Origin: Chryseobacterium indologenes
GTDB lineage: Bacteria > Bacteroidota > Bacteroidia > Flavobacteriales > Weeksellaceae
Length of the DNA stretch: 64,000 nucleotides
NCBI RefSeq assembly: GCF_018362995.1
Contig: NZ_CP074372.1
Span: forward strand, 2,294,001-2,358,000
Direction of reading: 5' to 3'
This document shows positions 6,379 to 37,727 of the stretch, one piece after another. The notes beneath the pieces were generated by a model. The model was not told where the DNA came from, ran no database searches, and saw nothing but the letters and a program-made list of their open reading frames with translations. Positions within the stretch are counted from its first letter, which is position 1; each line of letters opens with the position of its first letter. The position numbers and the translations under genes were made by a program.

Positions 6379-6384
6379 ATTCTG

Positions 6385-7676: not shown

Positions 7677-7697
7677 TGAAACGTCAATATTAGTAAA

Positions 7698-7893: not shown

Positions 7894-7915
7894 AGAGAAA
7901 ACACGATAACCCTTA

Positions 7916-9556: not shown

Positions 9557-9688
9557 ATGAAACAAAAAAGTGAAATATCAAACGGTATTTTCATTTAACT
9601 AATATTTAACTTTTAATCTTTCTATTTTGTGAGAATTTAGAAGGATTTGGTCAACATTTTGATAGAATAACCACGTAAAAAATAAATT

Positions 9689-11233: not shown

Positions 11234-11267
11234 TTTTTTTCATAGTTTATTTAATTTTGGGTTTAAA

Positions 11268-11304
11268 GCGGAAAAAATCGAATGATTTTTTCCGCTTCTT
11301 TTTT
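11268..11304 (+). terminator. Rho-independent terminator after porX
   Basis: A perfect 12-bp inverted repeat, GCGGAAAAAATC (11268-11279) with GATTTTTTCCGC (11284-11295), closes a 4-nt loop and is followed by a T-rich run. Confidence 0.85.
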
Positions 11305-11333
11305 ATAGTTCATATCTTCGTAAAAAATAAATC

Positions 11334-12388: not shown

Positions 12389-12411
12389 TTAATGGGAATA
12401 TTACCGCATAC

Positions 12412-12443
12412 AAAAAGCCAGCTGAATTAGCTGGCTTTTTTTT
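12412..12443. terminator. Bidirectional terminator between xth and the RlpA-like gene
   Basis: AAAAAGCCAGCT (12412-12423) and AGCTGGCTTTTT (12429-12440) form a perfect stem with a 5-nt loop, flanked by A and T runs on both sides. It can stop transcription from either strand. Confidence 0.85.
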
Positions 12444-12459
12444 AATTTAAATCATAAAA

Positions 12460-12831
12460 TTAATCGACAATTTCATATTCGACCGGAATTGTACCATGAC
12501 TGATATCTCCAATCTCATCGAACGCAGCTTTAGACATATCTAAAGATCTTGATGAATGGTAAGGTCCTCTATCATTAATTCTCACTATTACCTCTTTACC
12601 ATTTTTAAGGTTAGTCACCTTAACGTTTGTTCCAAATGGAAGCGTTCTGTTTGCTGCAGTAAACTTTGAATTATCAAAGACTTCTCCGCTAGCAGTTTTT
12701 CTACCGTTAAATTTATCGTGGTAGTACGATGCATAACTTGTTTTTTTCGCATCTGAGGCATTATTCGTAAAAGAATAAACACCTAAGGTTGAAATCATCA
12801 TTATGATTACGAGAATGAATCTTTTCATCAT
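12460..12831 (-). CDS. RlpA-like secreted protein (double-psi beta-barrel)
   Basis: A 123-residue protein with an N-terminal signal/membrane segment (MMKRFILVIIMMISTLGVYSF) and then one RlpA/DPBB domain filling the rest. The typical sequence SYYHDKFNGRKTASGE begins the domain, followed by FTAANRTLPFGT, VKVTNLKNGK and VRINDRGPYH with the conserved catalytic-type aspartate, then SLDMSKAAFDEIG. Members are lytic transglycosylases acting on denuded peptidoglycan; this one has no SPOR domain, so septal targeting cannot be assumed. It is a single gene with its own -7 element and a shared terminator. Confidence 0.88.
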   Translation of the reverse strand: MMKRFILVIIMMISTLGVYSFTNNASDAKKTSYASYYHDKFNGRKTASGEVFDNSKFTAANRTLPFGTNVKVTNLKNGKEVIVRINDRGPYHSSRSLDMSKAAFDEIGDISHGTIPVEYEIVD

Positions 12832-12858
12832 CTTGAACTTTTATTGGTTTTGACGGAG

Positions 12859-12866
12859 CAAAAGTA
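12859..12866 (-). promoter_or_regulatory. Putative -7 promoter element of the RlpA-like gene
   Basis: The minus strand reads TACTTTTG (TAnnTTTG), 27 bp before the start codon. A -33 TTG is not found at the normal spacing. Confidence 0.45.
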
Positions 12867-13340
12867 TCAGGAATCTTTAGAAAACCCTATTCAACATGTT
12901 AAAAACTGTTAATAAAAGATTAATCAAATGTTAAATACCGCTGTAACCTCCTATGAACAGGGGTTTTAGGGTACAGCGTTAAAAAGTGTTAAAAAAACAC
13001 GCAAAAAGTTAACATAATTAACTAATTTGTGCATAATTTAAATCTTACACTTTTAAAACAAATTGAAAATCAGTAAATTACAAAATTTATAAAGTTAAAA
13101 TAAAATCAGAAAATCAATCTCAAAAAATTTAAAGTCTTAAGAACCGAACTCCGGAAAAACTTTCTGACAGACGACATCTGCTTATATAAAGCGAGACAGC
13201 AGAATTATTTTTTAACACCTTTTTATTTTGTTAAAATCTACAGAGTGGTCCGTTGTTCAACAAATATCCGCTTTAACCATTCAAAAAAATGAATACGTGA
13301 TGATTTATAACCCGAAAAAATAAATGAACGTAAATCTCTC

Positions 13341-13375
13341 AAAAGCAAAAAAACCAATGATTTCTCATTGGTTTT
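13341..13375 (-). terminator. Terminator after the secreted-protein gene 13396-14130
   Basis: AAAACCAATGA (13350-13360) and TCATTGGTTTT (13365-13375) form a perfect 11-bp stem with a 4-nt loop. On the minus strand it is followed by TTTTTGCTTTT. Confidence 0.8.
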
Positions 13376-13395
13376 ATATGTAATTAAATAATGTC

Positions 13396-14130
13396 TTATT
13401 TTAAATATTCTAATACATAATCGTATGTACCGTTAGGATACACTACAGACATACTAGGAGATCCTGTAATAGCATTTCCTGGAGTCGTAACCGGATTATA
13501 AGAATATAAACTTCTATCATAAACAGTGTTTGTACCTGCTTTATAGATTGTAATACCATACATTGTAGTCATTCCTGCAGGAGCTGGGATATTAACTGCT
13601 GTAGAAGTACCACTTGCAGTGAAAGATCCTTTGATGGCATAGAGCTGCTTATCTACTCCCGGACTTACATTGATAATAGTATTTGTAGTTGTTTCTGCTG
13701 TTCCAACAGTTACTTTAGGTGAAGTTGAAAGTGAAACCCATCTACCAGTAGAAGTTGCAAAACCATTTGCTGATCCACCAGTTGGATTAGAGAAATAATA
13801 ATATCCCGGAGTTACACTTGTAGCAATACCAGAAACAGTAGTTCCTGAAGCGCTATTAAACACAATCATACCATCATATGCAGTTGGAAAGTTATCTTCG
13901 TCAGTAACAGGGGTTGCAAATGTAAAGGTAGTTAAGTCTGTTCTTGGGAAAACAAGTCCTTTTCCATTGTTTACACTATCGGTGAAACCACCTGTACTAC
14001 CAGAAGCATCTAAGAAAACTCCTTGTCCTTGTATATTTCCGCTGGCGAAACCATTTGTTCTAACCTGCGCGTTTGTATATTGAAGCATTGCCACTACAGA
14101 GGCAAAAGCTAATAAAACTTTTTTATTCAT
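13396..14130 (-). CDS. Secreted protein of unknown function (Thr/Gly/Ser-rich)
   Basis: A 244-residue protein with a signal peptide (MNKKVLLAFASVVAMLQYTNAQ). The mature part is low in charge and rich in Thr, Gly, Ser, Ala and Val. It has no cysteines, and it contains FLDASGS, GLVFPRTDLTTF and YDGMIVFNSASGT segments. Such 'vFPRtdL...tF...YDGMivFNs' stretches recur in flavobacterial surface proteins, where they precede an adhesin-like beta domain; the assignment is by pattern only. It lies 24 bp downstream of another secreted protein of similar style (14155-14790) and ends in its own terminator, so the two form a likely bicistronic unit. Function is unknown. Confidence 0.7.
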   Translation of the reverse strand: MNKKVLLAFASVVAMLQYTNAQVRTNGFASGNIQGQGVFLDASGSTGGFTDSVNNGKGLVFPRTDLTTFTFATPVTDEDNFPTAYDGMIVFNSASGTTVSGIATSVTPGYYYFSNPTGGSANGFATSTGRWVSLSTSPKVTVGTAETTTNTIINVSPGVDKQLYAIKGSFTASGTSTAVNIPAPAGMTTMYGITIYKAGTNTVYDRSLYSYNPVTTPGNAITGSPSMSVVYPNGTYDYVLEYLK

Positions 14131-14154
14131 AACTAAATGTGTGTAAATTTAAGA

Positions 14155-14790
14155 TTAGTTTACAGAGTAAGACTGCCATGCAGTACCATCATAAACAAAA
14201 GCAATACCTCTACCTTGAACAGTAATAGAGTTAACAGAACTTGCATTCATTCCCGTTATACTAACATTGGTAGTTCCTATTCTTACAATAGTAACCGTTT
14301 TACCTTTAGTAGCAGCACTTACAGGAATAGTTGCCAAATTTACTGAACCTGCTGTATCAATAAATACATAACCATTTAGGTCTGCTGCAGATAAATCTGA
14401 TCCAGTTGTAGAGATTCTTACAGAAGGAGCTGCTACAGCACCACCGCCACCACCTACAGCAATCCAAGTATTTGTAGTCTGGCCATCATAGTAGTAAAAA
14501 CCTACTGCTGTAACGTTTGTAGTTTTAGGAGTTGCTGTACCGTCAATTGTTGTAACGAAAGCAAGCGCTCCATTTTGAGCTGCAGTATAAGCCGCATCTT
14601 TAGCTAATAATTGAGCTCTTGTCATACGAGGGACTAATAAGGCATCAGGTCTAGCGTTGTCAGCAGTATTTGCTACTACATCTAGCGTTGCGGCAGGTGT
14701 GGTTGTGTTAATCCCCACTCGCCCCTGCTGAGCCTTAGAAAGGGCCGAAAGGCCAACAAGCATAATTGCTGTTAATAAAAATTTTTTCAT
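14155..14790 (-). CDS. Secreted protein with 'VGINTTTP' N-terminal motif, unknown function
   Basis: A 211-residue protein with a signal peptide (MKKFLLTAIMLVGLSALSKAQ), followed at once by GRVGINTTTPAATLDV, a motif frequent at the mature N-terminus of Bacteroidota surface proteins. Then come DALLVPRMTRAQL, GALAFVTT, VGFYYYDGQTTNTWI, a glycine run (GGGGG) and a beta-rich C-terminal part (GKTVTIVRIGTTNVSI, ending GTAWQSYSVN). The layout resembles surface or adhesin-like proteins, but no catalytic motif is seen. It is the first gene of a two-gene unit with the protein at 13396-14130. A phage-tail-fibre-like origin is possible but not supported by any neighbouring phage gene. Confidence 0.72.
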   Translation of the reverse strand: MKKFLLTAIMLVGLSALSKAQQGRVGINTTTPAATLDVVANTADNARPDALLVPRMTRAQLLAKDAAYTAAQNGALAFVTTIDGTATPKTTNVTAVGFYYYDGQTTNTWIAVGGGGGAVAAPSVRISTTGSDLSAADLNGYVFIDTAGSVNLATIPVSAATKGKTVTIVRIGTTNVSITGMNASSVNSITVQGRGIAFVYDGTAWQSYSVN

Positions 14791-15159
14791 AAGTTTTTAA
14801 AGATTTTTAATTACATTTTTTTTCATCAATATTTCCAAAATGGAAGATGCATCCCAACTTGTGAATATCATATTGAAACTGCCATATTAAAATACTATTT
14901 TAATTAATTTCAGCTTCATTTTAATGATTAACTTATTGAAAGCATATTATTTAAAAATATTGCTTATTGCGCAAATTTAAGACATAATTTTTGAATTTAT
15001 ATACTTTATAAAAGAAATTTGAAAAATCTTAATTACGCAAAACATTAACAAATTGATTATCAATAAAATAAAAACAAGCTACCGAGAAAATTCTATGTTA
15101 ATTTTCGTTAATAACTCAGTTTCACAAATCTTATTTTAAACTGATTAATAAGCATTTAG
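14791..15159. other. 369-bp intergenic region with promoter signal
   Basis: Very AT-rich and without a credible gene. It contains a minus-strand -7 element (TAAATTTG, 14972-14979) about 180 bp before the secreted-protein gene, which would give an unusually long leader. No clear terminator for rimO was found at its right end. Confidence 0.4.
14972..14979 (-). promoter_or_regulatory. Possible -7 element of the two secreted-protein genes
   Basis: The minus strand reads TAAATTTG, matching TAnnTTTG, 182 bp upstream of the ATG at 14790. It has no good -33 partner, so it is tentative. Confidence 0.3.
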
Positions 15160-16461
15160 CTAGACTAATTCTCCGTATAAGTCAAACTCTTCGGCTGAAG
15201 TAATTTTAACCTCTGCAAATTCACCTATAGAGATATAAGTATCTTCAGCAGAAACTAAAACTGTATTGTCCACATCTGGTGAATCATACTCCGTTCTTCC
15301 GATAAAATAGTTCCCTTCTTTACGATCAAAAATACATCTGAATATTTTACCTACTTTTTCCTGGTTCTTTTCCCACGAAATCTGAGACTGCAGTTCCATG
15401 ATTTCCTCTACTCTTGCCTCTTTTACTTCCTGTGGAATATCATCTTCTAGTACGTAAGCCGTAGTATTCTCTTCATGAGAATAAGTAAAGCATCCCAGTC
15501 TGTCAAATTTCTGCTCCCTTACCCAGTCTTTAAGTTCCTGGAATCTTTCTTCTGTTTCCCCAGGATATCCAACGATAAGCGTTGTTCTGATCGCCATATC
15601 CGGAACTTTTTCTCTGAACTTTCCTAAAAGAGCATCTGTTTTCTCATGAGTTGTTCCTCTCTTCATTGATTTCAACAAATCGGAATTGATATGCTGAAGA
15701 GGAATATCTATATAATTACAAACTTTAGGTTCTTCACGGATAATATCAAGAACATCTTCAGGGAAACCGCTTGGGAAAGCATAATGAAGACGGATCCATT
15801 CTACTCCTTCTACTTTCACCAATTCTTTTAAAAGATCTCCTAATGCTCTTTTCTTATAAAGATCAAGACCATAGTAAGTAAGATCCTGTGCGATAAGGAT
15901 CAATTCTTTTGTTCCTTTTTTTGCCAGTTTCTGAGCTTCTAAAACCAGTTTTTCGATAGGGGTTGACATATGCCCTCCTCTCATCAATGGGATCGCACAG
16001 AAAGAACATGGTCTGTCACAACCTTCTGAAATTTTAAGGTAAGCATAATGCTTTGGAGTTGTTGTAAGCCTTTCTCCTACCAGTTCGTGTTTATAATCTG
16101 CTCCAAGATGTTTAAGAAGCATCGGAAGGTCTCTTGTTCCGAAATACTGGTCTACATCCGGAATCTCTTTTACCAGATCCGGCTTGTATCTTTCTGATAA
16201 ACATCCTGTAACGAATACTTTTTCAACTTCTCCTCTATTTTTAGCCTCAACATAATCAAGGATGGTGTTAATAGATTCTTCTTTAGCGTTATCAATAAAT
16301 CCGCAGGTATTGATGACAACAATGTCACCACGGTCTTCATGAACCACTTCTTTGCCATTAGCTTTCAGCTGGCTCATTAATACTTCAGAATCATATACAT
16401 TCTTGGAACACCCAAGAGTGACTACATTGATTTTCTTCTTCCCTACAGATTTTGTACGCAT
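15160..16461 (-). CDS. rimO: Ribosomal protein S12 methylthiotransferase RimO
   Basis: A 433-residue radical-SAM enzyme that adds a methylthio group to the conserved aspartate of ribosomal protein S12. The N-terminal UPF0004 domain carries the second iron-sulfur cluster cysteines Cys18 (TLGCSKN), Cys53 (NTCGFI) and Cys87 (TGCLSER). The radical-SAM cluster is Cys148, Cys152 and Cys155 (SEGCDRPCSFCAIP), and a TRAM domain ends the protein. SEGCDRPCSFCAIP and the TLGCSKN start favour RimO over MiaB. I start at the ATG at 16461 (MRTKSVGKKK); the upstream TTG at 16491 lies beyond the -7 element. Confidence 0.95.
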   Translation of the reverse strand: MRTKSVGKKKINVVTLGCSKNVYDSEVLMSQLKANGKEVVHEDRGDIVVINTCGFIDNAKEESINTILDYVEAKNRGEVEKVFVTGCLSERYKPDLVKEIPDVDQYFGTRDLPMLLKHLGADYKHELVGERLTTTPKHYAYLKISEGCDRPCSFCAIPLMRGGHMSTPIEKLVLEAQKLAKKGTKELILIAQDLTYYGLDLYKKRALGDLLKELVKVEGVEWIRLHYAFPSGFPEDVLDIIREEPKVCNYIDIPLQHINSDLLKSMKRGTTHEKTDALLGKFREKVPDMAIRTTLIVGYPGETEERFQELKDWVREQKFDRLGCFTYSHEENTTAYVLEDDIPQEVKEARVEEIMELQSQISWEKNQEKVGKIFRCIFDRKEGNYFIGRTEYDSPDVDNTVLVSAEDTYISIGEFAEVKITSAEEFDLYGELV

Positions 16462-16480
16462 CGTTTTGATTTTGAGTCTG

Positions 16481-16488
16481 CAAAGATA
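16481..16488 (-). promoter_or_regulatory. Putative -7 promoter element of rimO
   Basis: The minus strand reads TATCTTTG, a perfect TAnnTTTG, 19 bp before the ATG at 16461. This implies a short leader and rules out the upstream TTG start. Confidence 0.6.
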
Positions 16489-16511
16489 CAAAATATTGAA
16501 GAGTTAAGAAT

Positions 16512-16545
16512 TAAAAAATAAAAACCACTTTATAAAAGTGGTTTT
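16512..16545 (-). terminator. Terminator of the polysaccharide locus
   Basis: AAAACCACTTT (16521-16531) and AAAGTGGTTTT (16535-16545) form a perfect 11-bp stem with a 3-nt loop. On the minus strand a TTTTATTTTTTAA run follows. It lies just after rfbC, the last gene of the locus. Confidence 0.85.
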
Positions 16546-16557
16546 CAGGGATATATT

Positions 16558-17103
16558 TTAAAAGTTTTTGTCTTTAAATCCAGGAGCGTTCTGATCTTTT
16601 TCAGAAAGTATAGCATCTTTTTCATCCACTTTCCAATCGATATCAAGATCCGGATCATTAAACTTTACACTGCCTTCTGATTCTTTGTTATAAAAGTTAT
16701 CGCATTTATAGGAAAATACAGCGTGAGTACTTAATACGGCAAATCCATGTCCAAAACCTCTCGGTACATAAAGCTGTAGTTTGTTTTCTGCGGTAAGCTC
16801 TATTCCGAACCATTTCCCAAAGGTAGGAGAATCTTCTCTAAGATCTACGGCAACATCCCACACACTGCCTTCCAGGCATGATACCAGTTTTGCCTGTGCA
16901 TGCTCTCCTTTCTGAAGATGCAGTCCTCGCAATACTCCATAAGATGATCTGGAAATATTATCCTGTACAAAGTGGCCGTTCATTCCTGTGAGTTCTTCGA
17001 ATTTTTTTTCGTTGAACTTTTCAAAGAAGTAGCCTCTTTCATCTTCAAATATGGTAGGCTCTATGATATAGCAATCTTTAAGCGGGGTTTCTTTAATTTT
17101 CAT
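16558..17103 (-). CDS. rfbC: dTDP-4-dehydrorhamnose 3,5-epimerase
   Basis: A 181-residue cupin enzyme of normal RmlC length. It epimerises dTDP-4-keto-6-deoxyglucose at C3 and C5 on the way to dTDP-L-rhamnose. Visible motifs are the start KETPLKDCYIIEPTIFEDERGYF, FVQDNISRSSYGVLRGLHLQ with the catalytic-base histidine, EGSVWDVAVDLR, the active-site tyrosine region (KLQLYVPRGFGHGFAVLS) and YKCDNFYNKESEG. It is the last gene of the polysaccharide locus. The other rhamnose genes (rfbA, rfbB, rfbD) are not in this window, so they are elsewhere or the product is a different dTDP-sugar. Confidence 0.93.
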   Translation of the reverse strand: MKIKETPLKDCYIIEPTIFEDERGYFFEKFNEKKFEELTGMNGHFVQDNISRSSYGVLRGLHLQKGEHAQAKLVSCLEGSVWDVAVDLREDSPTFGKWFGIELTAENKLQLYVPRGFGHGFAVLSTHAVFSYKCDNFYNKESEGSVKFNDPDLDIDWKVDEKDAILSEKDQNAPGFKDKNF

Positions 17104-17118
17104 AATAGTAAAAAAACT

Positions 17119-17688
17119 CTATTTCAATATGGTTATTATTGTTTTAAATAAAATCTTTGTATCATTTTTGAAAGACATATTTTCATAATAATCAAGATTC
17201 ATTTTTACTTTGTTCGGAAATAATATTTCATCATTATACTCCAACGGATTCTCCTGGCTGTTCAGAAGATTTTCTTCGTCTCTGTATTTAATGCTTGCTT
17301 CACAGGTTAATCCTGGTTTTAATTCCAGAACTTTTCTATCTGCTCCGGCAAGTTTATCGTAATACCCTTCGATATCTGGTCTGGGTCCCACAAAACTCAT
17401 ATCACCTTTTAAAATATTAAACAACTGGGGAAATTCATCAAATTTAAATTTCCTGAGGGTCTGTCCTATTTTGGAGCATACTCTTTTGTTATCATGAATT
17501 GTTTTAAATTTATATATGGTAAATGGCTTTCCATACTGTCCTATCCGGGTCTGAAAAAAAATACCACTTGATGATGTATCGAGACTTGCAACCACAAATA
17601 AAATAATCAGTACCGGCATAAGAAAGAGGGTCAATATTACCGCTAAGATAAAATCAAAAACCACTTTCCAATATTTGTACTGATTCAT
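17119..17688 (-). CDS. Initiating sugar transferase (monotopic phosphoglycosyl transferase) 1
   Basis: A 189-residue protein of the bacterial sugar transferase family (PF02397). It would transfer a sugar-1-phosphate from a nucleotide sugar to undecaprenyl phosphate on the inner membrane. It has a hydrophobic re-entrant N-terminal helix (FDFILAVILTLFLMPVLIILF), then QTRIGQYGKPFTIYKFKT, the catalytic acidic pair in FKFDEFPQLFNILKGDMSFVGPRPD, and the LKPGLTCEASIKYRDEE end, which differs from the [12 protein letters not shown] of its neighbour at 19463. The start is the ATG at 17688, not the TTG at 17697. The locus therefore has two such enzymes. Confidence 0.87.
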   Translation of the reverse strand: MNQYKYWKVVFDFILAVILTLFLMPVLIILFVVASLDTSSSGIFFQTRIGQYGKPFTIYKFKTIHDNKRVCSKIGQTLRKFKFDEFPQLFNILKGDMSFVGPRPDIEGYYDKLAGADRKVLELKPGLTCEASIKYRDEENLLNSQENPLEYNDEILFPNKVKMNLDYYENMSFKNDTKILFKTIITILK

Positions 17689-17702
17689 TAAATGCAATGA
17701 TA

Positions 17703-18839
17703 TTAAACTCCGAAGTAGTTACGGATGACGGTTGCTATTCTTTCTCTGTCATCATCTGACAAGTTAGACCCTGACGGAAGACATAATCCGTTATCAAAAA
17801 GATTTTCGGAAATTTTGCCTCCGTAATAAGGAGAAGATTCAAAAACCGGCTGTAAATGCATAGGCTTCCAAAGCGGTCTTGATTCTATATTATCTTCTAA
17901 AAACGCAAGTCTTAAGCCTTCTCTGTCTTTTCCTGTAACCTGCGGATCAACAATAATGGCAGATAACCAGTGATTTGAATAAAAATCATTTCCAGGCTCT
18001 GAGAATACGGTCACTCCTTCAATATTTTTGAAGATATCAAAATAGAAATCGTGCATTGCTCTACGCGCTTCCACTCTATCTTTAAGCACTTCCATCTGTC
18101 CTCTTCCTATTCCTGCAACAATATTGCTCATTCTGTAGTTGAAACCAATATGTGAATGCTGATAGTGAGGTGCATTATCTCTTGCCTGGGTAGAAAGGAA
18201 AACCGTTTTATCTTTATCTTCCTGAGTATGGCAAACCAAAGCTCCTCCTCCTGAGGTGGTAATAATTTTGTTCCCGTTAAAACTTAATATTCCAAAACGT
18301 CCGAATGTTCCACAAGCCTGCCCTTTGTAAGTAGAACCAAGAGCTTCTGCAGCATCTTCTATAACAGGAATCTGGAATTCCTGAGCAATGGCTATAATTT
18401 CGTCCATTTTTGCAGGCATACCATACAGATGAACTACAATGATAGCTTTGGGTTTTGTTCCTTTTTGAATTCTGTCTTCAACGGCTTCTCTTAAAGCTTT
18501 TGGACACATATTCCAGGTATCAGGTTCACTGTCTACAAAAACAGGAGTTCCCCCACAGTAAGCAATAGGATTGGCTGATGCTGAGAAAGTCATTGACTGG
18601 CAGATGACCTCATCACCATGCTCTACTCCACATTCAATAAGCGCAAGGTGCAATGCTGCGGTACCTGCAGAAAGAACGGCAACTTTTGCACTTCCACCCA
18701 AGAACTGCTCCAGATCCTTTTCAAGTCCGTCAACATTAGGTCCCAATGGTGCTACCCAGTTTTCTTCAAATGCTTCGTTGATATATTTTTGTTCGTTACC
18801 TCCCATATGGGGTGAGGACAACCAGATTTTAGTATTCAT
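17703..18839 (-). CDS. PLP-dependent sugar aminotransferase (PglE-like, DegT/DnrJ/EryC1/StrS)
   Basis: A 378-residue aminotransferase of the DegT family. It is most like PglE, which converts UDP-4-keto-6-deoxy-GlcNAc to the 4-amino sugar using glutamate. Residues visible: LSAGTAALHLAL for phosphate binding, IEDAAEALG (Asp162), and the Schiff-base lysine Lys191 in SFNGNKIITTSGGG. The start IWLSSPHMGGNEQKYI is typical of this subgroup. It lies directly between a PglD-like acetyltransferase (18860) and a sugar transferase, and with the PglF/WbpM-like dehydratase at 40994 completes a likely route to UDP-di-N-acetylbacillosamine. Substrate is inferred from context. Confidence 0.88.
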   Translation of the reverse strand: MNTKIWLSSPHMGGNEQKYINEAFEENWVAPLGPNVDGLEKDLEQFLGGSAKVAVLSAGTAALHLALIECGVEHGDEVICQSMTFSASANPIAYCGGTPVFVDSEPDTWNMCPKALREAVEDRIQKGTKPKAIIVVHLYGMPAKMDEIIAIAQEFQIPVIEDAAEALGSTYKGQACGTFGRFGILSFNGNKIITTSGGGALVCHTQEDKDKTVFLSTQARDNAPHYQHSHIGFNYRMSNIVAGIGRGQMEVLKDRVEARRAMHDFYFDIFKNIEGVTVFSEPGNDFYSNHWLSAIIVDPQVTGKDREGLRLAFLEDNIESRPLWKPMHLQPVFESSPYYGGKISENLFDNGLCLPSGSNLSDDDRERIATVIRNYFGV

Positions 18840-18859
18840 ATTTTTGATTAGTAATTTGT

Positions 18860-19453
18860 TTATATAATATTTTTCTTAATAATTCTACCGGGATTCCCCA
18901 CTACAACTGAATAATCAGGGATGTCATTAATAATTACCGATCCGGCACCTATTACACACCATTTTCCTACTTTAATTCCTTGTATTACCGAAGCACCGAT
19001 TCCGATCTGAGAGCCTTCTCCAATTTCCACTCCCCCTGCCAGTGCCGAATTAGGTGAAATATGAACAAAGTCTTCAATCACACAGTCATGATCTACAGAG
19101 GCATTGGTATTGATGATACAGTGTTTGCCAATGACAGTATCTGCATTAATTACCACACCTCCCATAACTACTGTTCCCTCTTCTATTTTCACAGAACCTG
19201 AAATGATTGACTTTGGGTGTATTAACGTGCCAATCTCTTGATTAATTTGTTCTGCAATTTTCTTACGAGTCAGATTATTTCCAATTGAAATAATAAGTTT
19301 TTCTTTATCTTCAGGTAAATTATTTAATACAGGAAAGCCATAGCATTCATTTTTAGTGATATCCTGATCTATGAATGCCTTAATCTTTATCTCATTAGCC
19401 ATTGCAATATCTGCAATTACTTTTCCGTGTCCACTTGCTCCAAATAAATACAT
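18860..19453 (-). CDS. Sugar O/N-acetyltransferase, PglD/NeuD family
   Basis: A 197-residue protein with an N-terminal Rossmann-like part (YLFGASGHGKVIADIA) and a left-handed beta-helix of hexapeptide repeats. It has the PglD-type active site histidine in NASVDHDCVIEDFVHISPNSALAGGV, and ends with DYSVVVGNPGRIIKKN. PglD acetylates the 4-amino group of UDP-4-amino-6-deoxy-GlcNAc. The start is the ATG at 19453; the TTG at 19462 would overlap the preceding gene. It sits between the PglC-like and PglE-like genes, which makes the bacillosamine reading likely, though NeuD-type sialic acid O-acetyltransferases share the fold. Confidence 0.87.
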   Translation of the reverse strand: MYLFGASGHGKVIADIAMANEIKIKAFIDQDITKNECYGFPVLNNLPEDKEKLIISIGNNLTRKKIAEQINQEIGTLIHPKSIISGSVKIEEGTVVMGGVVINADTVIGKHCIINTNASVDHDCVIEDFVHISPNSALAGGVEIGEGSQIGIGASVIQGIKVGKWCVIGAGSVIINDIPDYSVVVGNPGRIIKKNII

Positions 19454-30001: not shown

Positions 30002-31069
30002 TTACTTTGAGAAAATTTTCTTTATGGTCCATATTAATTTGATTGAATCAACGAAAAAGTTTTCAAACAAGTTCGTATAAGAGTCTTTATAAAAATATTC
30101 TTTTATTTTATGTAGTTTTCCTGTTTTAAGCAAAACCAAAAGATCTCCATCTAAAACCCAGAAGAACTTTTTTCCCACTTCATATTTTTTCTCAATTTGT
30201 TCTTCCACCTTATTTGAATAAGCTTCAATCAAGGTTTTGCCAAAATTGAGTCCTACTGCATAAGATAAATCTAATGAACCCCAAAATTTGGGATTTAACT
30301 CTATTAAATAATATTGCTGTTTTGTTTCATCATATTTATATTCAATCATTAATGGGCCAGACCAATTTAAATATTCTATAATTTGTTTAGATATATTAAA
30401 CATTTTTTCACAAAAAATAGACTTGGCAGCTGTACTAGATCCCCCGGTAATTGGTATTTCTCTAATACGTTGGTGCATATAATAGCTAATGATTTTACCT
30501 TCTTTAGCAATACAAAAAAAACCTCTACCTACCCCTGATACCTGCTCCTGCATTAATAGTTTTACTCCCCCTGACAAGTATTTATCTATTTTTTCAAATT
30601 CGGATTCAGAACCTAATTTTACATATAGCGGATCAAATTTGGCTAAGCTTTCATTGCTTGATTTAACAACACAATTCTTATCTCTACTGTATAGCCTTAA
30701 TTCCTCCAGATTTGAAAATAATTTACATTCAGGATAATTTACATCGCTAAGAGAATTCAAAATTAGCATTTTATCTTTATTTAATGCTATTTCAAGACTC
30801 TCTTTTGTAGGTATTAAACATAATTCCCTATATTTTTCAGAGCATATCTTTACAGCTTCGCTCCCTACAGGAATTATAAATTCGGGGTTAATCTGTTTGA
30901 CTGATTCCTCCAAATCCCCCACAATATAATCTTTGCAATATCCCAATCTTTTAGTAAAAAAAACGGCTTCTTTATCTGTAGCAAAAACCTCGTGCATATT
31001 ATCTTTATACAATTCCCGCTGTATTGCTATAGAGTTTTTGTAATTTGCATCCGTTATCAAAATTCTCAT
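30002..31069 (-). CDS. ATP-grasp ligase (carbamoyl-phosphate-synthase-like fold)
   Basis: A 355-residue protein of the ATP-grasp superfamily. The N-terminal pre-grasp part is MRILITDANYKNSIAIQREL. ATP-grasp motifs are NKDKMLILNSL, CVVKSSNESLAKFDPLYVKL for the nucleotide lysines, LLMQEQVSGVGRGFFCIAKEG, and the metal-binding Glu/Asn in GPLMIEYKYDETKQQYYLIELNPKFWGSL. Such enzymes join a carboxylate to an amine or another nucleophile through an acyl phosphate. In a glycan locus this suggests adding an amino acid or forming an amide on a uronic acid. It overlaps the deacetylase gene (ATGA) and lies just before the PHP gene. Confidence 0.83.
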   Translation of the reverse strand: MRILITDANYKNSIAIQRELYKDNMHEVFATDKEAVFFTKRLGYCKDYIVGDLEESVKQINPEFIIPVGSEAVKICSEKYRELCLIPTKESLEIALNKDKMLILNSLSDVNYPECKLFSNLEELRLYSRDKNCVVKSSNESLAKFDPLYVKLGSESEFEKIDKYLSGGVKLLMQEQVSGVGRGFFCIAKEGKIISYYMHQRIREIPITGGSSTAAKSIFCEKMFNISKQIIEYLNWSGPLMIEYKYDETKQQYYLIELNPKFWGSLDLSYAVGLNFGKTLIEAYSNKVEEQIEKKYEVGKKFFWVLDGDLLVLLKTGKLHKIKEYFYKDSYTNLFENFFVDSIKLIWTIKKIFSK

Positions 31070-32445
31070 ACTTGCTTTGTATTATTCAGGGTTGAACAAA
31101 ATTCGAGGATCTGACAGTATAGTTCTTTCTTTTTTTCATTCTCAAATTCATCATTGTGCCAAAGTAATGAAAATCTCCCTCCCACTTTATAACACTGAAG
31201 AACTATTTTTTTGACGTAATTAAGAGCTTTATCATCATCTATTCTTATTTTAGAATAATCCAAGACACTTCCTTCCATTATAATCAGAGGTCTTATTTCT
31301 ACATTTAGAATTGATTTGTTATAGATATCAAATGGTTTATAGGGGAAACATGTTCCGCATCTGAAACCACCTGTTTCATAAAAGGTTAGGGTATTATCAT
31401 ACTTCTGCCCAACTGTAGAAATTTGTCTTAGTGTTTTGAGAAAATTAATTCTTAAATAATGCATTCTACCTCCCATTTCTGTAGAAATGTTCAATTCAGA
31501 CAAAATTTTTCGGAGCTTCATCCACTCTGTCTTAATATTAAATTTTGATGATGCATTGTAACTATAATGAATACCTACTTCATGGCCTCTATCGTTAATT
31601 TTCTTTATAAGACGTTTTACAAAACTGGTATAGTTGTATCTAAAATCAAATTTGAAAGAGGTATTGGCTGGAATAAAATAAAATTTACTGATTATACCGT
31701 GTTTCTCTGAAACATCCATAAGCCAATCAAATGTATTTGAAGCCTCTTTATCAAAAAAAGATGCTCTATTCATCAGATAAGAAATAGCCAATTTTGGTCT
31801 TTTTACAGAATCTATAAGAAAAAGGGCAATAAATTTAATTTTCGGAACACTAATATATCTTGATATTTTATCTACATCGTGGCTTACTTCATAAGAAAAC
31901 GTATTTTGCTTACAATCAATTTCAGAGGCTAAAAGTATACTTCCAATAAAATAGACCCACTCATCAACTACTGGCCTCAGGTATAATTCATCCTTAAATA
32001 AATGCGAGTTTTTCAGCTCAAATCTGGAATGTTTATCTTCAGAATTCACTCCATATTCCTCTAATCTATTGAGAGACCATATCATGTATGATATGAAGTC
32101 ATAATTTATTGTAAAAACATTATTTTCTTTCCTGATAAACCAATCTATTTCCGAAACTCCAAATAAAACTAAATTTTCATTTGGAATTTCCAGCCCTGCT
32201 GTTTTTGAAATAGATTCTCCGGACACATAACTGAAGACTTTTTCTTTATTGAAAAATGCTTGTCTACCATTATTTGTAAAGTTAATCGTTACAAAATGGC
32301 TGTTTTTAGAAAAAGTCAGACAAAAGCAGTCCTCAGAGAACTTAACCTGGACATTTACATCAAATCTCTCTCTAAAAATATTACCCACCCAATCTTGCAG
32401 CCGATTATCGGAAAGTATTTCTGAGAAATAATTACTTGTTACCAA
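31066..32445 (-). CDS. Polysaccharide deacetylase family protein (CE4-like)
   Basis: A 459-residue protein. Residues ~1-150 are a beta-rich N-terminal domain of unknown role. Residues ~170-440 form a CE4-like NodB fold: SYEVSHDVDKISRY (first Asp/His set), FYFIPANTSFKFDFRYNYTSF, DRGHEVGIHYSYNAS (metal histidines), GGRMHYLRINFLKTLRQI and the terminal SLLWHNDEF. It has no signal peptide, so it probably works in the cytosol on a nucleotide sugar or lipid-linked glycan. The frame opens with a TTG at 32445 and has no ATG close by, so a TTG start is likely. Its stop overlaps the ATP-grasp start (ATGA). Confidence 0.8.
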   Translation of the reverse strand: MVTSNYFSEILSDNRLQDWVGNIFRERFDVNVQVKFSEDCFCLTFSKNSHFVTINFTNNGRQAFFNKEKVFSYVSGESISKTAGLEIPNENLVLFGVSEIDWFIRKENNVFTINYDFISYMIWSLNRLEEYGVNSEDKHSRFELKNSHLFKDELYLRPVVDEWVYFIGSILLASEIDCKQNTFSYEVSHDVDKISRYISVPKIKFIALFLIDSVKRPKLAISYLMNRASFFDKEASNTFDWLMDVSEKHGIISKFYFIPANTSFKFDFRYNYTSFVKRLIKKINDRGHEVGIHYSYNASSKFNIKTEWMKLRKILSELNISTEMGGRMHYLRINFLKTLRQISTVGQKYDNTLTFYETGGFRCGTCFPYKPFDIYNKSILNVEIRPLIIMEGSVLDYSKIRIDDDKALNYVKKIVLQCYKVGGRFSLLWHNDEFENEKKKELYCQILEFCSTLNNTKQV

Positions 32446-32469: not shown

Positions 32470-33480
32470 CTACTTTTTATCATATATTCTCTCAATAATA
32501 TCCACCACTTTCAATCCTTCCAGAGCATTGGTTGTAATGGTATTTCTTCCTTTCAGTACATCTACAACATTTTCAATGATATAGTGGTGATTGGCAGCAG
32601 ATCCTTTGTAAGCACCATAATCATTTCCAGGATTCGTTGGAGCTAATTCCGGCATTACATAGTCTTTTATATTACAAACTTCTACTTTATCCATGTATTG
32701 TCCTCCGATTTTCACTGCTCCATGCTCTGCAATGATTGTCATAGAACTTTCAAGATTCTGATTCCATACCGAAGTAGAATAGTTTAATGATCCCATTCCT
32801 CCGTCTACAAAATCAAAGCTAACAAAACCTGAGTCTTCAAAATCAGTAAGAGTCTCATGATTAAAGTCTGCAAATTTTGCCTGAATATTGGTAATATCAC
32901 CGAATAACCAGTACATAATATCTATAAAATGAGAAAACTGTGTAAATAAAGTTCCTCCATCCAGATCTTTCTTTCCATGCCATGATTCCGGTTTATAATA
33001 TCGGTCATCGCGGTTCCAGTAGCAATTAAGCTGAACCATATATATTTTCCCAAGTTTTCCGCTCTCTACCATTTCTTTTACCCATGCAGAAGGTGGAGAG
33101 TATCTGTTTTGCATCACTGCAAACACCTGCTTATGCTTATGTAAAGCCTGAAAAATAAGTTTTTCAGCATGTTGTTTTTTCAGAGCCATTGGCTTTTCTA
33201 CCACAACGTGCTTTCCAGCATCAATCACTTTATAAGACTGTTCAAAATGGAATCCGTTTGGGGATGCAATATTAATAACATCCACTTCAATTCCGGAAGC
33301 TAAGAATTCATCCAGTGATGCAAAAAAGGGAACTTCATAATTTTCAATGCCCAGTAAAGATTTATCTTTAACATCGATCAATCCAACCAATTCACATTCC
33401 TCATTTCTTAAGATCATTTCGGCATGTCTTTTTCCGATATGCCCGCAGCCAACGACTGCAAACTTTATTTTCTCACTCAT
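32470..33480 (-). CDS. UDP-sugar 3-dehydrogenase, WbpB/WlbA-like (Gfo/Idh/MocA family)
   Basis: A 336-residue oxidoreductase with an N-terminal Rossmann domain (KFAVVGCGHIGKRHAEMI) and the catalytic EKPMALKK motif (Lys96), then the C-terminal beta-sheet domain with HFIDIMYWLFGDITNI. WbpB/WlbA oxidises UDP-N-acetyl-glucosaminuronic acid at C3 to the 3-keto form using bound NAD; in characterised cases 2-oxoglutarate can re-oxidise the cofactor. It lies next to WbpD- and WbpE-like genes with 10 bp spacing, which fixes the pathway assignment. Confidence 0.9.
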   Translation of the reverse strand: MSEKIKFAVVGCGHIGKRHAEMILRNEECELVGLIDVKDKSLLGIENYEVPFFASLDEFLASGIEVDVINIASPNGFHFEQSYKVIDAGKHVVVEKPMALKKQHAEKLIFQALHKHKQVFAVMQNRYSPPSAWVKEMVESGKLGKIYMVQLNCYWNRDDRYYKPESWHGKKDLDGGTLFTQFSHFIDIMYWLFGDITNIQAKFADFNHETLTDFEDSGFVSFDFVDGGMGSLNYSTSVWNQNLESSMTIIAEHGAVKIGGQYMDKVEVCNIKDYVMPELAPTNPGNDYGAYKGSAANHHYIIENVVDVLKGRNTITTNALEGLKVVDIIERIYDKK

Positions 33481-33490
33481 TTGTATGTTT

Positions 33491-34063
33491 TTAAATTTTT
33501 GAAACTTTATTGTTTTCTAATTTGTATTTTTCTCCACTTTCTTCACAAACGGCAATATTTTCTGCATCAAATTGAAGTCTTTGCCCAAATTCGCTCATCC
33601 ACCCCATTTGTCTGGCAGGATTTCCTACTACCAATGCATAATCCGGCACTTCTTTTGTAACTACTGCTCCTGCTCCAATGAAGGCATACTGACCTATATT
33701 GTGTCCACAGACAATAGTTGCATTAGCTCCTATAGATGCACCTTTTCCCACATGTGTTTTCAGATATTCATTCTTTCTGTTTACGGCACTTCTTGGATTT
33801 ATCACGTTGGTAAAAACCATTGAAGGACCTAAAAAGACATCATCGTCACATGTTACTCCTTCATAAATAGAAACATTATTCTGAACTTTTACATTCTTTC
33901 CTAAAATTACTTTTGGAGAAATAACAACGTTTTGTCCTATATTACATTTTTCTCCCAAAACGCAGCCGGTCATAAGGTGTGAAAAATGCCAAATTTTGGT
34001 TCCGGTCCCTATCTGGCAACCTTCATCAATAACAGCTGTTTCGTGTGCAAAAAAATCTGACAT
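33491..34063 (-). CDS. UDP-3-amino-sugar acetyltransferase, WbpD/WlbB-like
   Basis: A 190-residue left-handed beta-helix acetyltransferase. The sequence KIWHFSHLMTGCVLGEKCNIGQNVVISPKVILGKNVKVQNNVSIYEGV is almost diagnostic of the WbpD/WlbB group, followed by GPSMVFTNVINPRSAVNRKNEY and DYALVVGNPARQMGWMSEFGQRL. It acetylates the 3-amino group of UDP-GlcNAc(3NH2)A to give UDP-2,3-diacetamido-2,3-dideoxy-glucuronic acid. It lies between the WbpB- and WbpE-like genes. Confidence 0.93.
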   Translation of the reverse strand: MSDFFAHETAVIDEGCQIGTGTKIWHFSHLMTGCVLGEKCNIGQNVVISPKVILGKNVKVQNNVSIYEGVTCDDDVFLGPSMVFTNVINPRSAVNRKNEYLKTHVGKGASIGANATIVCGHNIGQYAFIGAGAVVTKEVPDYALVVGNPARQMGWMSEFGQRLQFDAENIAVCEESGEKYKLENNKVSKI

Positions 34064-34075
34064 ATCTGCTTTATA

Positions 34076-35200
34076 TTAATTAAAATAATTCTTAATTTCT
34101 GTAACAATAACATCCAATACTTCCTGATCAAATTCTGTATGTATAGGAAGGGAAATCACTTCGGTGCAAAGCTGCTCCGTAACAGGAAGACTAAAACCTT
34201 CTTCCACGTATTGAAGAAAAGCTTCTTGTTTGTAAAGGGGTAAAGGATAATAAATCATACTTGGAATATTCTTTTCTGCCAAATATTTTTGTAGGTCATC
34301 TCTTTTCCCATTTTTCACTCTAAGGGTATACTGATGGAATACGTGGGTAGAGTTTTCAGCTCTTTTGGGTATTTGAATTTCGGCAATACCAGCAAGATTT
34401 TTATCATAATAATCAGCCATCCTGTTTCTGGCAGCAGAATATTCATCTAAATGTTTTAGCTTAACTTTTAAAACGGCTGCCTGAATTGTATCTAATCTGG
34501 AATTGCAACCTAAAACTTTATGATAGTATTTCTTTTCCTGACCATGGTTGGCAATCATTCTGATTTTTAAAGCCAGATCATCATCATTCGTCATTAACGC
34601 ACCTCCATCACCATAGCAACCCAGGTTTTTTGACGGAAAAAATGAGGTACACCCGATATGGCCAATAGCTCCCGTTTTTTTGACGGTTCCGTCAGAAAAA
34701 GTATAATCGGAACCCATTGCCTGAGCATTATCTTCTATAACAAAAAGATTGTGCCTTTCTGCAAATTCAAGAATCTTTTCCATATTGGCACTTTGCCCAT
34801 ATAAATGAACAGGAACAATTGCTTTGGTATTAGGTGTCAGATATTTTTGTAAATCCTCAAGTTCAATATCAAAAGTATCTCCGTTTACATCTACCATTAC
34901 GGGTTTTAATCCTAAAAGACCAATAACTTCAGCAGTAGCTACGTAAGTGAAAGCCGGGCAGATAATTTCGTCACCAGGCTGCAGATCAAGTGCCATCATG
35001 GCAATTTGAAGGGCATCAGTTCCGTTAGCACAAGGGATAACATGTTTTACACCTAAATATTTTTCGAAATCCTGTTGAAATTCTTTTACAGCAGGACCAT
35101 TAATAAATGCTGTATTGTCTATACATTCCTGGATACCGGCATCTATGTCTTCTTTTATTTTCAGGTATTGACCTTTAAGGTCAACCATTTGAATTTTCAT
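34076..35200 (-). CDS. UDP-3-keto-sugar aminotransferase, WbpE/WlbC-like
   Basis: A DegT/DnrJ/EryC1/StrS aminotransferase of 374 residues from the ATG at 35200 (MKIQMVDLKGQYLKIK). An in-frame ATG at 35233 would add 11 residues and is less likely. The PLP lysine is Lys191 in SFFPSKNLGCYGDGG, with VIEDNAQAMG (Asp157) and CANGTDALQIAM for cofactor binding, close to the WbpE pattern. It converts the 3-keto UDP-GlcNAcA from WbpB to the 3-amino sugar using L-glutamate, releasing 2-oxoglutarate. It directly follows the lhgO gene and precedes wbpD. Confidence 0.92.
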   Translation of the reverse strand: MKIQMVDLKGQYLKIKEDIDAGIQECIDNTAFINGPAVKEFQQDFEKYLGVKHVIPCANGTDALQIAMMALDLQPGDEIICPAFTYVATAEVIGLLGLKPVMVDVNGDTFDIELEDLQKYLTPNTKAIVPVHLYGQSANMEKILEFAERHNLFVIEDNAQAMGSDYTFSDGTVKKTGAIGHIGCTSFFPSKNLGCYGDGGALMTNDDDLALKIRMIANHGQEKKYYHKVLGCNSRLDTIQAAVLKVKLKHLDEYSAARNRMADYYDKNLAGIAEIQIPKRAENSTHVFHQYTLRVKNGKRDDLQKYLAEKNIPSMIYYPLPLYKQEAFLQYVEEGFSLPVTEQLCTEVISLPIHTEFDQEVLDVIVTEIKNYFN

Positions 35201-35234
35201 ATCTTTAGTTTTTGAGTGCACGTAGAGGTGCATT

Positions 35235-36425
35235 TTAATTCACAATAAGCTCACTGATCTTATTTCCTATAGAAAGACAGGAAGTGGCTGCCGGAGAGGG
35301 TGCATTTCTTACGTGAATAATGTTTCCGTTTTTCACGATATCAAAATCATCAATTAATCCTCCATTTCTGTCACAAGCCTGAGCTCTTACACCTGAGCCT
35401 CCTGCTACGAGGTCATTTTCCTGTATTTCCGGTAAAAGTTTCTGTAAAGCTTTTGTAAACGCGGATTTGGAAAGTGAACGGTGCATTTCTCCCATTCCTG
35501 TTTTTCCGTATTTCGCTACAATTTTCCTAAATCCAGGCCATAGCATAGTCTGCATCGTTTCGTTGAAATTGAAATCGAAAAAATGGTATCCTTCCTTCTT
35601 GAAAGCCAAAACAGCATTAGGACCAGCTTCGATATTACCATCAATCATTCTGGTAAAGTGTACTCCAAGGAACGGAAAGCTAGGGTCAGGAACCGGATAA
35701 ATAAGATGTTTTACCAAATATTTTTTTTCATCCTTAATCTTATAATATTCTCCTCTGAACGGAATAATGACCACATCGTTTTTTTCGTTGGTCATTTTGG
35801 TGATCTTATCAGAATAAAGTCCTGCGCAGGAAATCAGCTTTTTGGTTTTAAATTCGGAAACGTTGGTGTTTACAATAATTTCAGATCCTTTATCAATGAT
35901 GTTTTTTACTTCATTGTTGAATCTCACTTCTCCTCCTAATTCTTCAAAAAGTTCTTTTATTTTTTTTGCTATTCCCGGATAATCAATAATTCCGGTTTGT
36001 GGCACTTTTATTGCTCTTATACCTTCGCAGTGAGGTTCAATTTCACGGAATTCTTCTCTTGAAAGATATTTTAAGTTTTGCAGACCGTTTTCAATACCTC
36101 TTTTATAAATATTATCTAAAAGGGGTAATTCTTCCTGTGAGGTAGCTACGATTATTTTGCCGCAAAGGTCGTATCTTATTCCGTATTTCTCGGCAAAATT
36201 AATGACTGAATTATATCCTTCGATACAGTTTTTTGCTTTAAGGCTGCCTGGTTTATAATAAATCCCACTATGGATTACGCCGCTGTTGTGTCCCGATTGG
36301 TGCAATGCAACATCGTTTTCTTTTTCTAAAATTAAAATCTTAGAATCAGGATTTTTCAGCTTAGTTTGATAGGCCGTAGCCAATCCTACCAAACCTGCAC
36401 CAATGATTATAATATCATAGCTCAT
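35235..36425 (-). CDS. lhgO: L-2-hydroxyglutarate oxidase (FAD-dependent)
   Basis: A 396-residue FAD oxidoreductase of the DAO family. N-terminal FAD site: YDIIIIGAGLVGLATAYQ with LILEKENDVALHQSGHNSGVIHSGIYYKPGS, the signature of LhgO/L2HGDH. C-terminal pieces are LKSAGGSGVRAQAC-like (VAGGSGVRAQACDRNG) and HVRNAPSPAATSCLSIG. It oxidises L-2-hydroxyglutarate to 2-oxoglutarate, passing electrons to quinones. Its place between the WbpA-like gene (7 bp away) and the WbpE gene is striking, because this pathway forms 2-hydroxyglutarate when WbpB's NADH is re-oxidised by 2-oxoglutarate. The functional link is an inference. Confidence 0.92.
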   Translation of the reverse strand: MSYDIIIIGAGLVGLATAYQTKLKNPDSKILILEKENDVALHQSGHNSGVIHSGIYYKPGSLKAKNCIEGYNSVINFAEKYGIRYDLCGKIIVATSQEELPLLDNIYKRGIENGLQNLKYLSREEFREIEPHCEGIRAIKVPQTGIIDYPGIAKKIKELFEELGGEVRFNNEVKNIIDKGSEIIVNTNVSEFKTKKLISCAGLYSDKITKMTNEKNDVVIIPFRGEYYKIKDEKKYLVKHLIYPVPDPSFPFLGVHFTRMIDGNIEAGPNAVLAFKKEGYHFFDFNFNETMQTMLWPGFRKIVAKYGKTGMGEMHRSLSKSAFTKALQKLLPEIQENDLVAGGSGVRAQACDRNGGLIDDFDIVKNGNIIHVRNAPSPAATSCLSIGNKISELIVN

Positions 36426-36431
36426 TATCTG

Positions 36432-37727
36432 TTACAGTCTTGCATCCACCAGATTTCTGTCTAAACATGCCTTGGTATCAAAAACCACAGCATTTTCTTT
36501 TTTAAGCTGATCCATATCCATTTCCAGAAACTCATTATGAGATACTGCAATAACTAAAGAATCATACTTTTTCCCTTCCTGCAGAGTATCCAGAATATCA
36601 ATTCCATATTCATGTTTTACTTCCTCTTTGCTCGCCCACGGATCATAAATATCTACATTCACTCCGTAATCAGCAAGTTCTCTGTAAATATCAACAACTT
36701 TAGTATTTCTGACATCCGGGCAGTTTTCCTTGAACGTAACTCCTAAAATCAAGGCATTTGAATTCTTGATCACTCCACCTTTTGCAATAAGAAGCTTTAC
36801 TACTTTAGCTGCAACAAACTTAGCAATAGAATCGTTTACACGTCTTCCTGATAAAATAACATCCGGGTGGTATCCTAACTGCTCTGCCTTGTGTGCAAGG
36901 TAATAAGGATCTACGGAGATACAATGTCCTCCTACTAATCCCGGTTTATATTTAAGGAAATTATATTTTGTTCCAGCAGCTTCCAATACATCATTGGTAT
37001 CAATTCCTACTCTATCAAAAATTAAAGCTAATTCGTTCACAAAGGAAATATTAACATCTCTTTGTGCGTTTTCAATAGCTTTAGAAGCTTCTGCAACTTT
37101 AATGCTGGGTGCCTTGTGCGTTCCAGCTGTAATGATTTTCTTATATAGATTATCCACTTCTTCGGCAATCTTTTCCGTAGAACCTGAAGTTACTTTCTTA
37201 ACACTGGTAAGCGTATTCACTTTATCTCCCGGATTAATTCTCTCTGGAGAATATCCTACAAAAAAGTCTTCGTTAAACTGAAGTCCTGAATATTTTTCAA
37301 GAACCGGTACACATTCTTCTTCGGTACATCCTGGAAAAACTGTAGATTCATAGATAACAATATCTCCTTTTTTGATAATTTCGCCCAACATTTTTGAGGC
37401 AGAAATCAGTGGATTCAGATCCGGAGCATTGTATTTATCAATAGGGGTAGGAACTGTTACAATGAATACATTAGCTTCAGAAATATCAGACAACAGGCTT
37501 GTTGCCTTGTAGCCTAAAGAACCATTAGATTCATTATATTTTTTCAGCCCGTTATTTAATTTATCAACATCTGCTTCAAGCGTTATATCCTTTCCCTCAT
37601 TAAGCTGATCAACACGCTGTGTATTGATATCAAATCCAAAGACAGGATAATGATCTGCAAATTCAAGAGATAAAGGAAGACCTACATAACCCTGGCCTAT
37701 AACCGCTATTTTATATGTTGTTATCAT
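36432..37727 (-). CDS. UDP-N-acetylglucosamine 6-dehydrogenase (WbpA/TviB-like)
   Basis: A 431-residue nucleotide-sugar dehydrogenase. The N-terminal NAD domain is KIAVIGQGYVGLPLSLEF, with TVPTPIDKYNAPDL and the YESTVFPGCTEEECVPVLE segment shared with TviB and WbpO. The catalytic nucleophile is Cys269 in GLVGGHCISVDPYYLAHKAEQLGYHP; Lys216 (EASKAIENAQRD) assists. It oxidises C6 twice to make UDP-N-acetyl-glucosaminuronic acid, feeding the WbpB/E/D genes downstream. Choice of GlcNAc over GalNAc is inferred from that context. Its ATG shares one base with the wzc stop codon (TAATG). Confidence 0.92.
   Translation of the reverse strand: MITTYKIAVIGQGYVGLPLSLEFADHYPVFGFDINTQRVDQLNEGKDITLEADVDKLNNGLKKYNESNGSLGYKATSLLSDISEANVFIVTVPTPIDKYNAPDLNPLISASKMLGEIIKKGDIVIYESTVFPGCTEEECVPVLEKYSGLQFNEDFFVGYSPERINPGDKVNTLTSVKKVTSGSTEKIAEEVDNLYKKIITAGTHKAPSIKVAEASKAIENAQRDVNISFVNELALIFDRVGIDTNDVLEAAGTKYNFLKYKPGLVGGHCISVDPYYLAHKAEQLGYHPDVILSGRRVNDSIAKFVAAKVVKLLIAKGGVIKNSNALILGVTFKENCPDVRNTKVVDIYRELADYGVNVDIYDPWASKEEVKHEYGIDILDTLQEGKKYDSLVIAVSHNEFLEMDMDQLKKENAVVFDTKACLDRNLVDARL

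Follow-up and report, generated by a model that had tools for sequence, protein, structure and literature searches.

Recycling of 2-hydroxyglutarate (2-HG) in sugar synthesis has been described for Pseudomonas aeruginosa PAO1, where the WbpB of lipopolysaccharide (LPS) synthesis, a ping-pong enzyme that uses 2-oxoglutarate, makes D-2-HG and is inhibited by it, and where a D-specific flavin dehydrogenase (D2HGDH, PA0317) returns the 2-HG to 2-oxoglutarate (PMC8651671). In Escherichia coli, LhgO is membrane-bound and ubiquinone-linked and belongs to the CsiD/GlaH-LhgO glutarate operon (available portion of PMC6265302), and in Porphyromonas gingivalis WbpA, WbpB, WbpE and WbpD are assigned, with VimE and VimA, to the linking sugar of the type IX secretion system (available excerpts of PMC7468200 and PMC4031482). 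Here, a window of 64,000 nucleotides from Chryseobacterium indologenes (assembly GCF_018362995.1, contig NZ_CP074372.1, positions 2,294,001 to 2,358,000) was analysed, in which lhgO, predicted from its sequence to be an L-2-hydroxyglutarate oxidase gene whose product acts on L-2-HG, lies inside a wbp cassette. The gene is a regular member of this cassette in Chryseobacterium, and lhgO was recruited into wbp cassettes at least twice independently. The arrangement resembles the PAO1 system in that a putative flavin 2-HG dehydrogenase yielding 2-oxoglutarate accompanies the same kind of sugar pathway, but differs from it in that the dehydrogenase is of the L type and is encoded within the cassette, and in that WbpB is of the WlbA type, a different sequence family from PAO1 WbpB. 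With the P. gingivalis pathway it shares WbpA, WbpB, WbpE, WbpD and a VimE-like deacetylase, with no WbpI found in the window; unlike the P. aeruginosa and P. gingivalis pathways, it includes lhgO, which goes unmentioned in the excerpts of PMC4031482 and PMC7468200. Among the literature matches listed, in a search that left most subscription literature outside, none connected lhgO to a wbp or O-antigen locus; two of the papers, examined for such a link, contained a locus of the csiD type and a mention in a table.

The lhgO gene and its cassette

The order wbpA, lhgO, wbpE, wbpD, wbpB on one strand, claimed in the original prediction, was borne out by the coordinates:

36432..37727, minus strand: wbpA, UDP-GlcNAc 6-dehydrogenase-type nucleotide sugar dehydrogenase (TIGR03026, 397 bits; cut-off 190)
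35235..36425, minus strand: lhgO, L-2-hydroxyglutarate oxidase/dehydrogenase, predicted (NF008726, 541 bits; cut-off 299)
36255..36296, minus strand: LhgO residues 44-57, SGHNSGVIHSGIYY, containing S48 and the predicted catalytic H52 (equivalents of Ser88 and His92 of the Drosophila enzyme)
34076..35233, minus strand: wbpE, DegT/DnrJ/EryC1 sugar aminotransferase, likely start at 35200 (PF01041, 382 bits)
33491..34063, minus strand: wbpD, hexapeptide N-acetyltransferase (PF00132)
32470..33480, minus strand: wbpB, Gfo/Idh/MocA UDP-GlcNAcA 3-dehydrogenase, WlbA type by sequence and predicted fold; relatives sequential
31066..32445, minus strand: VimE-like deacetylase, likely a later step on the same sugar (NF053580, 117 bits, cut-off 440; PF23019)

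Close spacing, also claimed, was confirmed with no gap above 34 bp, but the claimed range of 7-34 bp had to be revised to 6 bp (wbpA/lhgO), 1 bp (lhgO/wbpE), 12 bp (wbpE/wbpD) and 10 bp (wbpD/wbpB); with the wbpE ATG at 35200, the start used by a relative in locus L019, the lhgO/wbpE gap becomes 34 bp. The preceding chain-length kinase gene overlapped wbpA by 1 base, and the VimE-like deacetylase gene followed wbpB after 24 bp. The wbpA product scored 520 bits against the TviB model, under its cut-off of 592. Homologues of WbpA, WbpB, WbpE and WbpD were all present, which is the gene set of the Wbp pathway to UDP-2,3-diacetamido-2,3-dideoxy-glucuronic acid (UDP-GlcNAc3NAcA). Both LhgO and WbpB were single-copy at such similarity in the 5.0-Mb single-contig genome (next matches 40 bits vs 895 and 51 bits vs 775, respectively). 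Apart from the cassette, positions 17712-19258 of the window encode a LegC-like aminotransferase (37% identity) and a hexapeptide transferase.

The LhgO match to the curated family NF008726 covered profile positions 1-388 of 389, and that to Drosophila L-2-hydroxyglutarate dehydrogenase (dmL2HGDH, 8w75) covered residues 2-395 (E 1.6e-106, 360 bits). In the structure of dmL2HGDH with 2-oxoglutarate, the substrate contacts are Ser88, His92, Tyr289, Leu299, His302 and Arg393, with His92 as the likely base and the C5 carboxylate held by Arg393 and Leu299 (available part of PMC10726252). All six were kept in the window LhgO, as S48, H52, Y243, L253, H256 and R347, and all six, both carboxylate sites included, were conserved in 72 of 72 aligned LhgO rows. 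The LhgO signature named in the original prediction was located, and holds the first two of these residues. By analogy with the E. coli enzyme, a member of the same family with 44% identity, we infer that the window LhgO is membrane-bound and quinone-linked. The E. coli partner of LhgO is a glutarate hydroxylase; unlike in that operon, no match to GlaH, nor to GabD or GabT, was obtained here at E 1e-6 in a search confined to the window, and glutarate/lysine catabolism was set aside as the role of lhgO for this reason.

Distribution and history of lhgO

A search of named genomes for lhgO gave 37 loci, of which 31 were from Chryseobacterium, and in all 31 lhgO lay between wbpA and wbpE; of the remaining six, five came from Sulfurimonas, matching at 25-26%, and one from Polaribacter, matching in part. 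The genus sample comprised 148 Chryseobacterium genomes: 49 contained WbpB, one of them (G382) with the gene broken into two frames, and 47 contained LhgO, all of them among the 49. In each of these 47 genomes lhgO was on the same contig as wbpB and within ~4.3 kb of it, and lhgO was found in none of the 99 genomes without wbpB. In the two wbpB genomes without lhgO (G336 and G353), wbpE was also unseen in the 20 kb fetched around wbpB: one locus (L132) had no wbpE match, and in the other (L133) WbpE matched nothing but a LegC-like gene, at 30%. Where wbpD was absent, lhgO was retained (L019, and L030 with the same spacing). In L019 (12355-15427), a 643-aa protein, dehydrogenase E1-like by eye, and a 384-aa protein replace wbpD between wbpE and wbpB, perhaps giving the 3-amino another acyl group.

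The lhgO gene is under strong purifying selection. Its median ratio of nonsynonymous to synonymous substitution rates (dN/dS; 116 pairs from 30 loci) was 0.029, the lowest among six genes (wbpA 0.042, wbpE 0.056, wbpD 0.039, wbpB 0.035 and wzc 0.108; only pairs with dS 0.1-1.5, loci L009-L038), a value by which a functionless lhgO was rejected. An interruption of lhgO in L032 (G367:C44) was ruled out, the in-frame stop being at residue 395 of 396. Locus L039 says little on lhgO, because its wbpA and wbpE frames are broken together with that of lhgO.

Of 296 genomes sampled across the phylum, 43 had WbpB, 114 had LhgO and 31 had both; the two lay within 10 kb of each other in five genomes (four Chryseobacterium, and G026) and 20-22 kb apart in G038 and G100, distances being defined for pairs on one contig only and not across different contigs. 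A class sample of 395 genomes contained 289 with WbpB, 241 with LhgO, 201 with both, 40 with LhgO alone and 66 with neither; LhgO absences in this sample are upper bounds, since at most four candidates per genome were scored. The odds ratio for the association of WbpB with LhgO was 3.8 in the class sample and 5.3 in the phylum sample, values given little weight because kinship was uncorrected.

The linked loci of the class sample were L147, where lhgO is the next gene, and L146 and L148, from the same genus, at ~7 kb. In L147 (G581) the order was wbpA-wbpD-wbpB-lhgO, with a wbpB/lhgO gap of 32 bp, followed by GNAT acetyltransferase and DegT aminotransferase genes. In the phylum-sample locus L111 (G026), lhgO was one gene away from wbpE-wbpD-wbpB; this locus (3485-19257) holds two wbpE-wbpD-wbpB-like sets, one only of which is beside lhgO, and its WbpD is short (151 aa). 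The LhgOs of L147 and L111, from two families, grouped together with genomic and metagenomic homologues from public data, apart from the housekeeping LhgOs, and those of Chryseobacterium fell inside the Bacteroidota housekeeping group. A single clade of all wbp-linked LhgOs, defined by gene context after the first tree had been viewed and with L146 and L148 treated as unlinked, was rejected (difference in log-likelihood 254.5, approximately unbiased test p 2e-104; quick tree). The homologues of the L147 LhgO in the tree were 8 from the best 120 listed of 7987 scored, none with genomic context. Chance adjacency of lhgO and wbp genes was rejected by the genus data together with this second, independent clade.

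Genes of the LhgO family were also found in sugar loci of other kinds. A third LhgO clade was located near LegC-type aminotransferases (L112:5503-6747, L114:5457-6701 and L116:9476-10675). L112 and L114 also carry genes resembling LegI and LegG, and L116 has LegC alone, the Leg names coming from a reading of the L112 proteins with no family call. These are nonulosonate-type loci, and WbpB was not seen in the stretches fetched around their LhgO genes. On plasmids, 11 regions out of 287 LhgO records were viewed, hand-chosen and non-random. In each of the four Deinococcus plasmids among them (L262, L263, L265 and L266), lhgO was part of an annotated operon of rfbF, lhgO, a short-chain dehydrogenase/reductase gene, rfbC and an oxidoreductase gene, a CDP-sugar-type pathway with LhgO; its junctions overlap or span a few bases, it has no aminotransferase, and the L262 oxidoreductase has a DRL catalytic domain. 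The other 7 plasmid records (Bernardetia, Niallia, Parageobacillus, Rhizobium, Agrobacterium and two from Phaeobacter) showed no sugar operon around lhgO. WbpB matched 19 plasmid records, and the one region viewed had no lhgO. A viral-contig scan gave no relative of the L147-type LhgO; an LhgO-like gene, 52% identical to Deinococcus LhgO, was observed in Aphanizomenon phage Yong-DA (ON073792.1:23461-24627).

WbpB type and the role of LhgO

By sequence and predicted fold, the window WbpB belongs with the WlbA type and not with the 2-oxoglutarate-using type. It scored 257 and 245 bits against the WlbA type, vs 76 and 63 bits against the P. aeruginosa and Thermus thermophilus enzymes (3oa2, 3o9z), was closest in both respects to 3q2k/3q2i (Bordetella pertussis, Chromobacterium violaceum), and fell outside the sequence definition of the 2-oxoglutarate-dependent ping-pong type of P. 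aeruginosa; the fold comparison covered the best 50 matches and, with the P. aeruginosa WbpB structure outside these, is uninformative about that structure. A sequential mechanism has been reported for WlbA-type WbpB of Bordetella and Chromobacterium. Being of the wrong type, the window WbpB is likely not the direct source of L-2-HG. The LhgO-linked WbpB of L147 was ~70% identical to that of the window, no closer than unlinked WbpBs of the class, and that of L111 was 45% identical, so that a special LhgO-linked WbpB type was not apparent.

The original prediction proposed a cofactor loop in which WbpB retains its bound NADH and re-oxidises it with 2-oxoglutarate, giving L-2-HG from which LhgO regenerates 2-oxoglutarate. 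This proposal has partial support: lhgO in the genus occurs only with wbpB and in L147 directly follows it, and 2-oxoglutarate reduction is real in P. aeruginosa WbpB, with a 2-HG dehydrogenase that supports O-antigen there (PMC8651671). However, the product of that enzyme is the D form, the window WbpB groups with the sequential type, and no separate type of LhgO-linked WbpB is apparent, which makes such a loop unlikely. Because of the D-2-HG product in P. aeruginosa and the WlbA type of the window WbpB, a side reaction was tentatively favoured over an obligatory exchange between the two enzymes: L-2-HG, arising as a side-product from pathway-released 2-oxoglutarate and NADH, could well be returned by LhgO to 2-oxoglutarate, with the electrons passing to the quinone pool. 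The WbpA and WbpB of relatives are NAD-dependent, and WbpE-type enzymes form 2-oxoglutarate from glutamate. WbpA and WbpB would release NADH and WbpE would release 2-oxoglutarate, and flux through the cassette would raise both together; some NADH-dependent enzyme, either a host enzyme of the malate dehydrogenase type or WbpA/WbpB acting off-path, would reduce part of the 2-oxoglutarate to L-2-HG, which LhgO would recover. Removal of L-2-HG would relieve inhibition and return carbon, and LhgO, through respiration, would irreversibly draw the reversible 3-oxidation and transamination steps forward. This reading draws on the family and conserved active site of LhgO, on its tie to the cassette in the genus (lacking where wbpE was not seen, kept where wbpD is absent), on its low dN/dS, on its separate recurrence in L147 and L111, and on the ubiquinone-linked E. 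coli enzyme. A broader form of this idea, which we regard as doubtful, is that sugar operons repeatedly recruited LhgO as an integral redox partner and that their NAD-dependent enzymes, WlbA-type WbpB included, shed reducing power onto 2-oxoglutarate as L-2-HG, in a mirror image of the D-2-HG system of P. aeruginosa, with LhgO coupling a reversible NAD step to the quinone pool and so making it respiration-driven.

Several observations weigh against the favoured side-product reading. Of the 289 class genomes with WbpB, 88 had no LhgO at the threshold used. LhgO was present in 3 of 99 fetched class WbpB loci and in 0 of 14 further phylum-sample WbpB loci (L117-L130), the 99 being the first of the listed WbpB matches in listed order (19 + 80 loci, 98 genomes; Chryseobacterium rows left out, as were G041 and G126, which had been fetched earlier and had no LhgO), with ~8-10 kb on each side, shorter at contig ends. 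Linkage outside Chryseobacterium is on these counts the exception, and lhgO as a universal partner of WbpB was rejected; the presence of lhgO beside wbpE/wbpB in other genomes, as looked for in the original prediction, held in all 47 genus genomes with lhgO and recurred in two other families, but not in the class at large. Within the genus, the lhgO frame was broken in 2 of 47 genomes (G417 and G354 (75% complete assembly)), the adjacent wbpE and lhgO of the lhgO-less loci could have been lost by a single deletion, and functional linkage cannot be told apart from co-inheritance on one mobile cassette. Moreover, the partner of LhgO may not be WbpB or WbpE, since LhgO-like genes sit in sugar loci without WbpB, namely the nonulosonate-type loci and the Deinococcus plasmids.

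It is also conceivable, if improbable, that lhgO is useful cargo, a gene for general metabolite repair that travels with a mobile sugar locus and is retained on its own merits. The linkage within the genus would follow from a single introduction, and 8 of the 20 other LhgO loci retrieved, the 8 belonging to one family, had LhgO adjoining a YdiJ-type D-2-HG dehydrogenase, the setting expected of a repair gene. Such cargo is hard to reconcile with a recruitment into wbp cassettes that happened independently at least twice, with the absence of lhgO from 101 of 148 genus genomes and its occurrence in none of them away from the cassette, and with its constant position while wbpD and the downstream genes vary. 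In the eight loci (L162, L164, L166, L168-L171 and L174) the housekeeping LhgO gene is directly beside the YdiJ-type gene (~29% identity to E. coli YdiJ), and the two neighbours may form a pair handling both enantiomers of 2-HG; E. coli YdiJ as a query matched none of 59 Chryseobacterium genomes at 1e-30, that of the window included, in a search with no positive control and with the PA0317 type unsearched. Least probable among these explanations is that LhgO oxidises another substrate, for example a hydroxy-uronic sugar-pathway intermediate. The presence of LhgO-family genes in other wbp cassettes, nonulosonate-type loci and CDP-sugar-type operons would suit this, but the full conservation of the L2HGDH substrate residues argues against it, as do the scores of five other sugar-locus LhgOs (L147, L111, L112, L116 and L262), all of which pass the NF008726 equivalog cut-off (403-578 vs 299 bits).

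Product sugar and implications

Downstream of wbpB, positions 30002-32445 encode the VimE-like deacetylase, a relative of VimE that scored below VimE assignment, and an ATP-grasp protein. Both genes followed wbpB in L009, L015 and L034, and in L012 and L016 the ATP-grasp gene was present without an adjacent VimE-like gene. By analogy with what has been proposed for P. gingivalis VimE/VimA, the two proteins could remove an acetyl group from the sugar and attach an amino acid. The WbpI-like epimerase of L111, used as a query, had no match at E 1e-6 in the window, to which the search was confined. Given the lack of a WbpI-like gene in the window and the WbpA/B/E/D-VimE-VimA precedent of P. gingivalis, the cassette product is likely UDP-GlcNAc3NAcA or a VimE-processed form of it.

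If recycling of L-2-HG does support 2,3-diamino uronic acid synthesis, it would constitute an additional metabolic control point for the surface glycans of Bacteroidota, and bacteria would have a physiological source of L-2-HG beyond lysine/glutarate breakdown. Which enantiomer WlbA-type WbpB forms, if it forms 2-HG at all, would then become a direct question.

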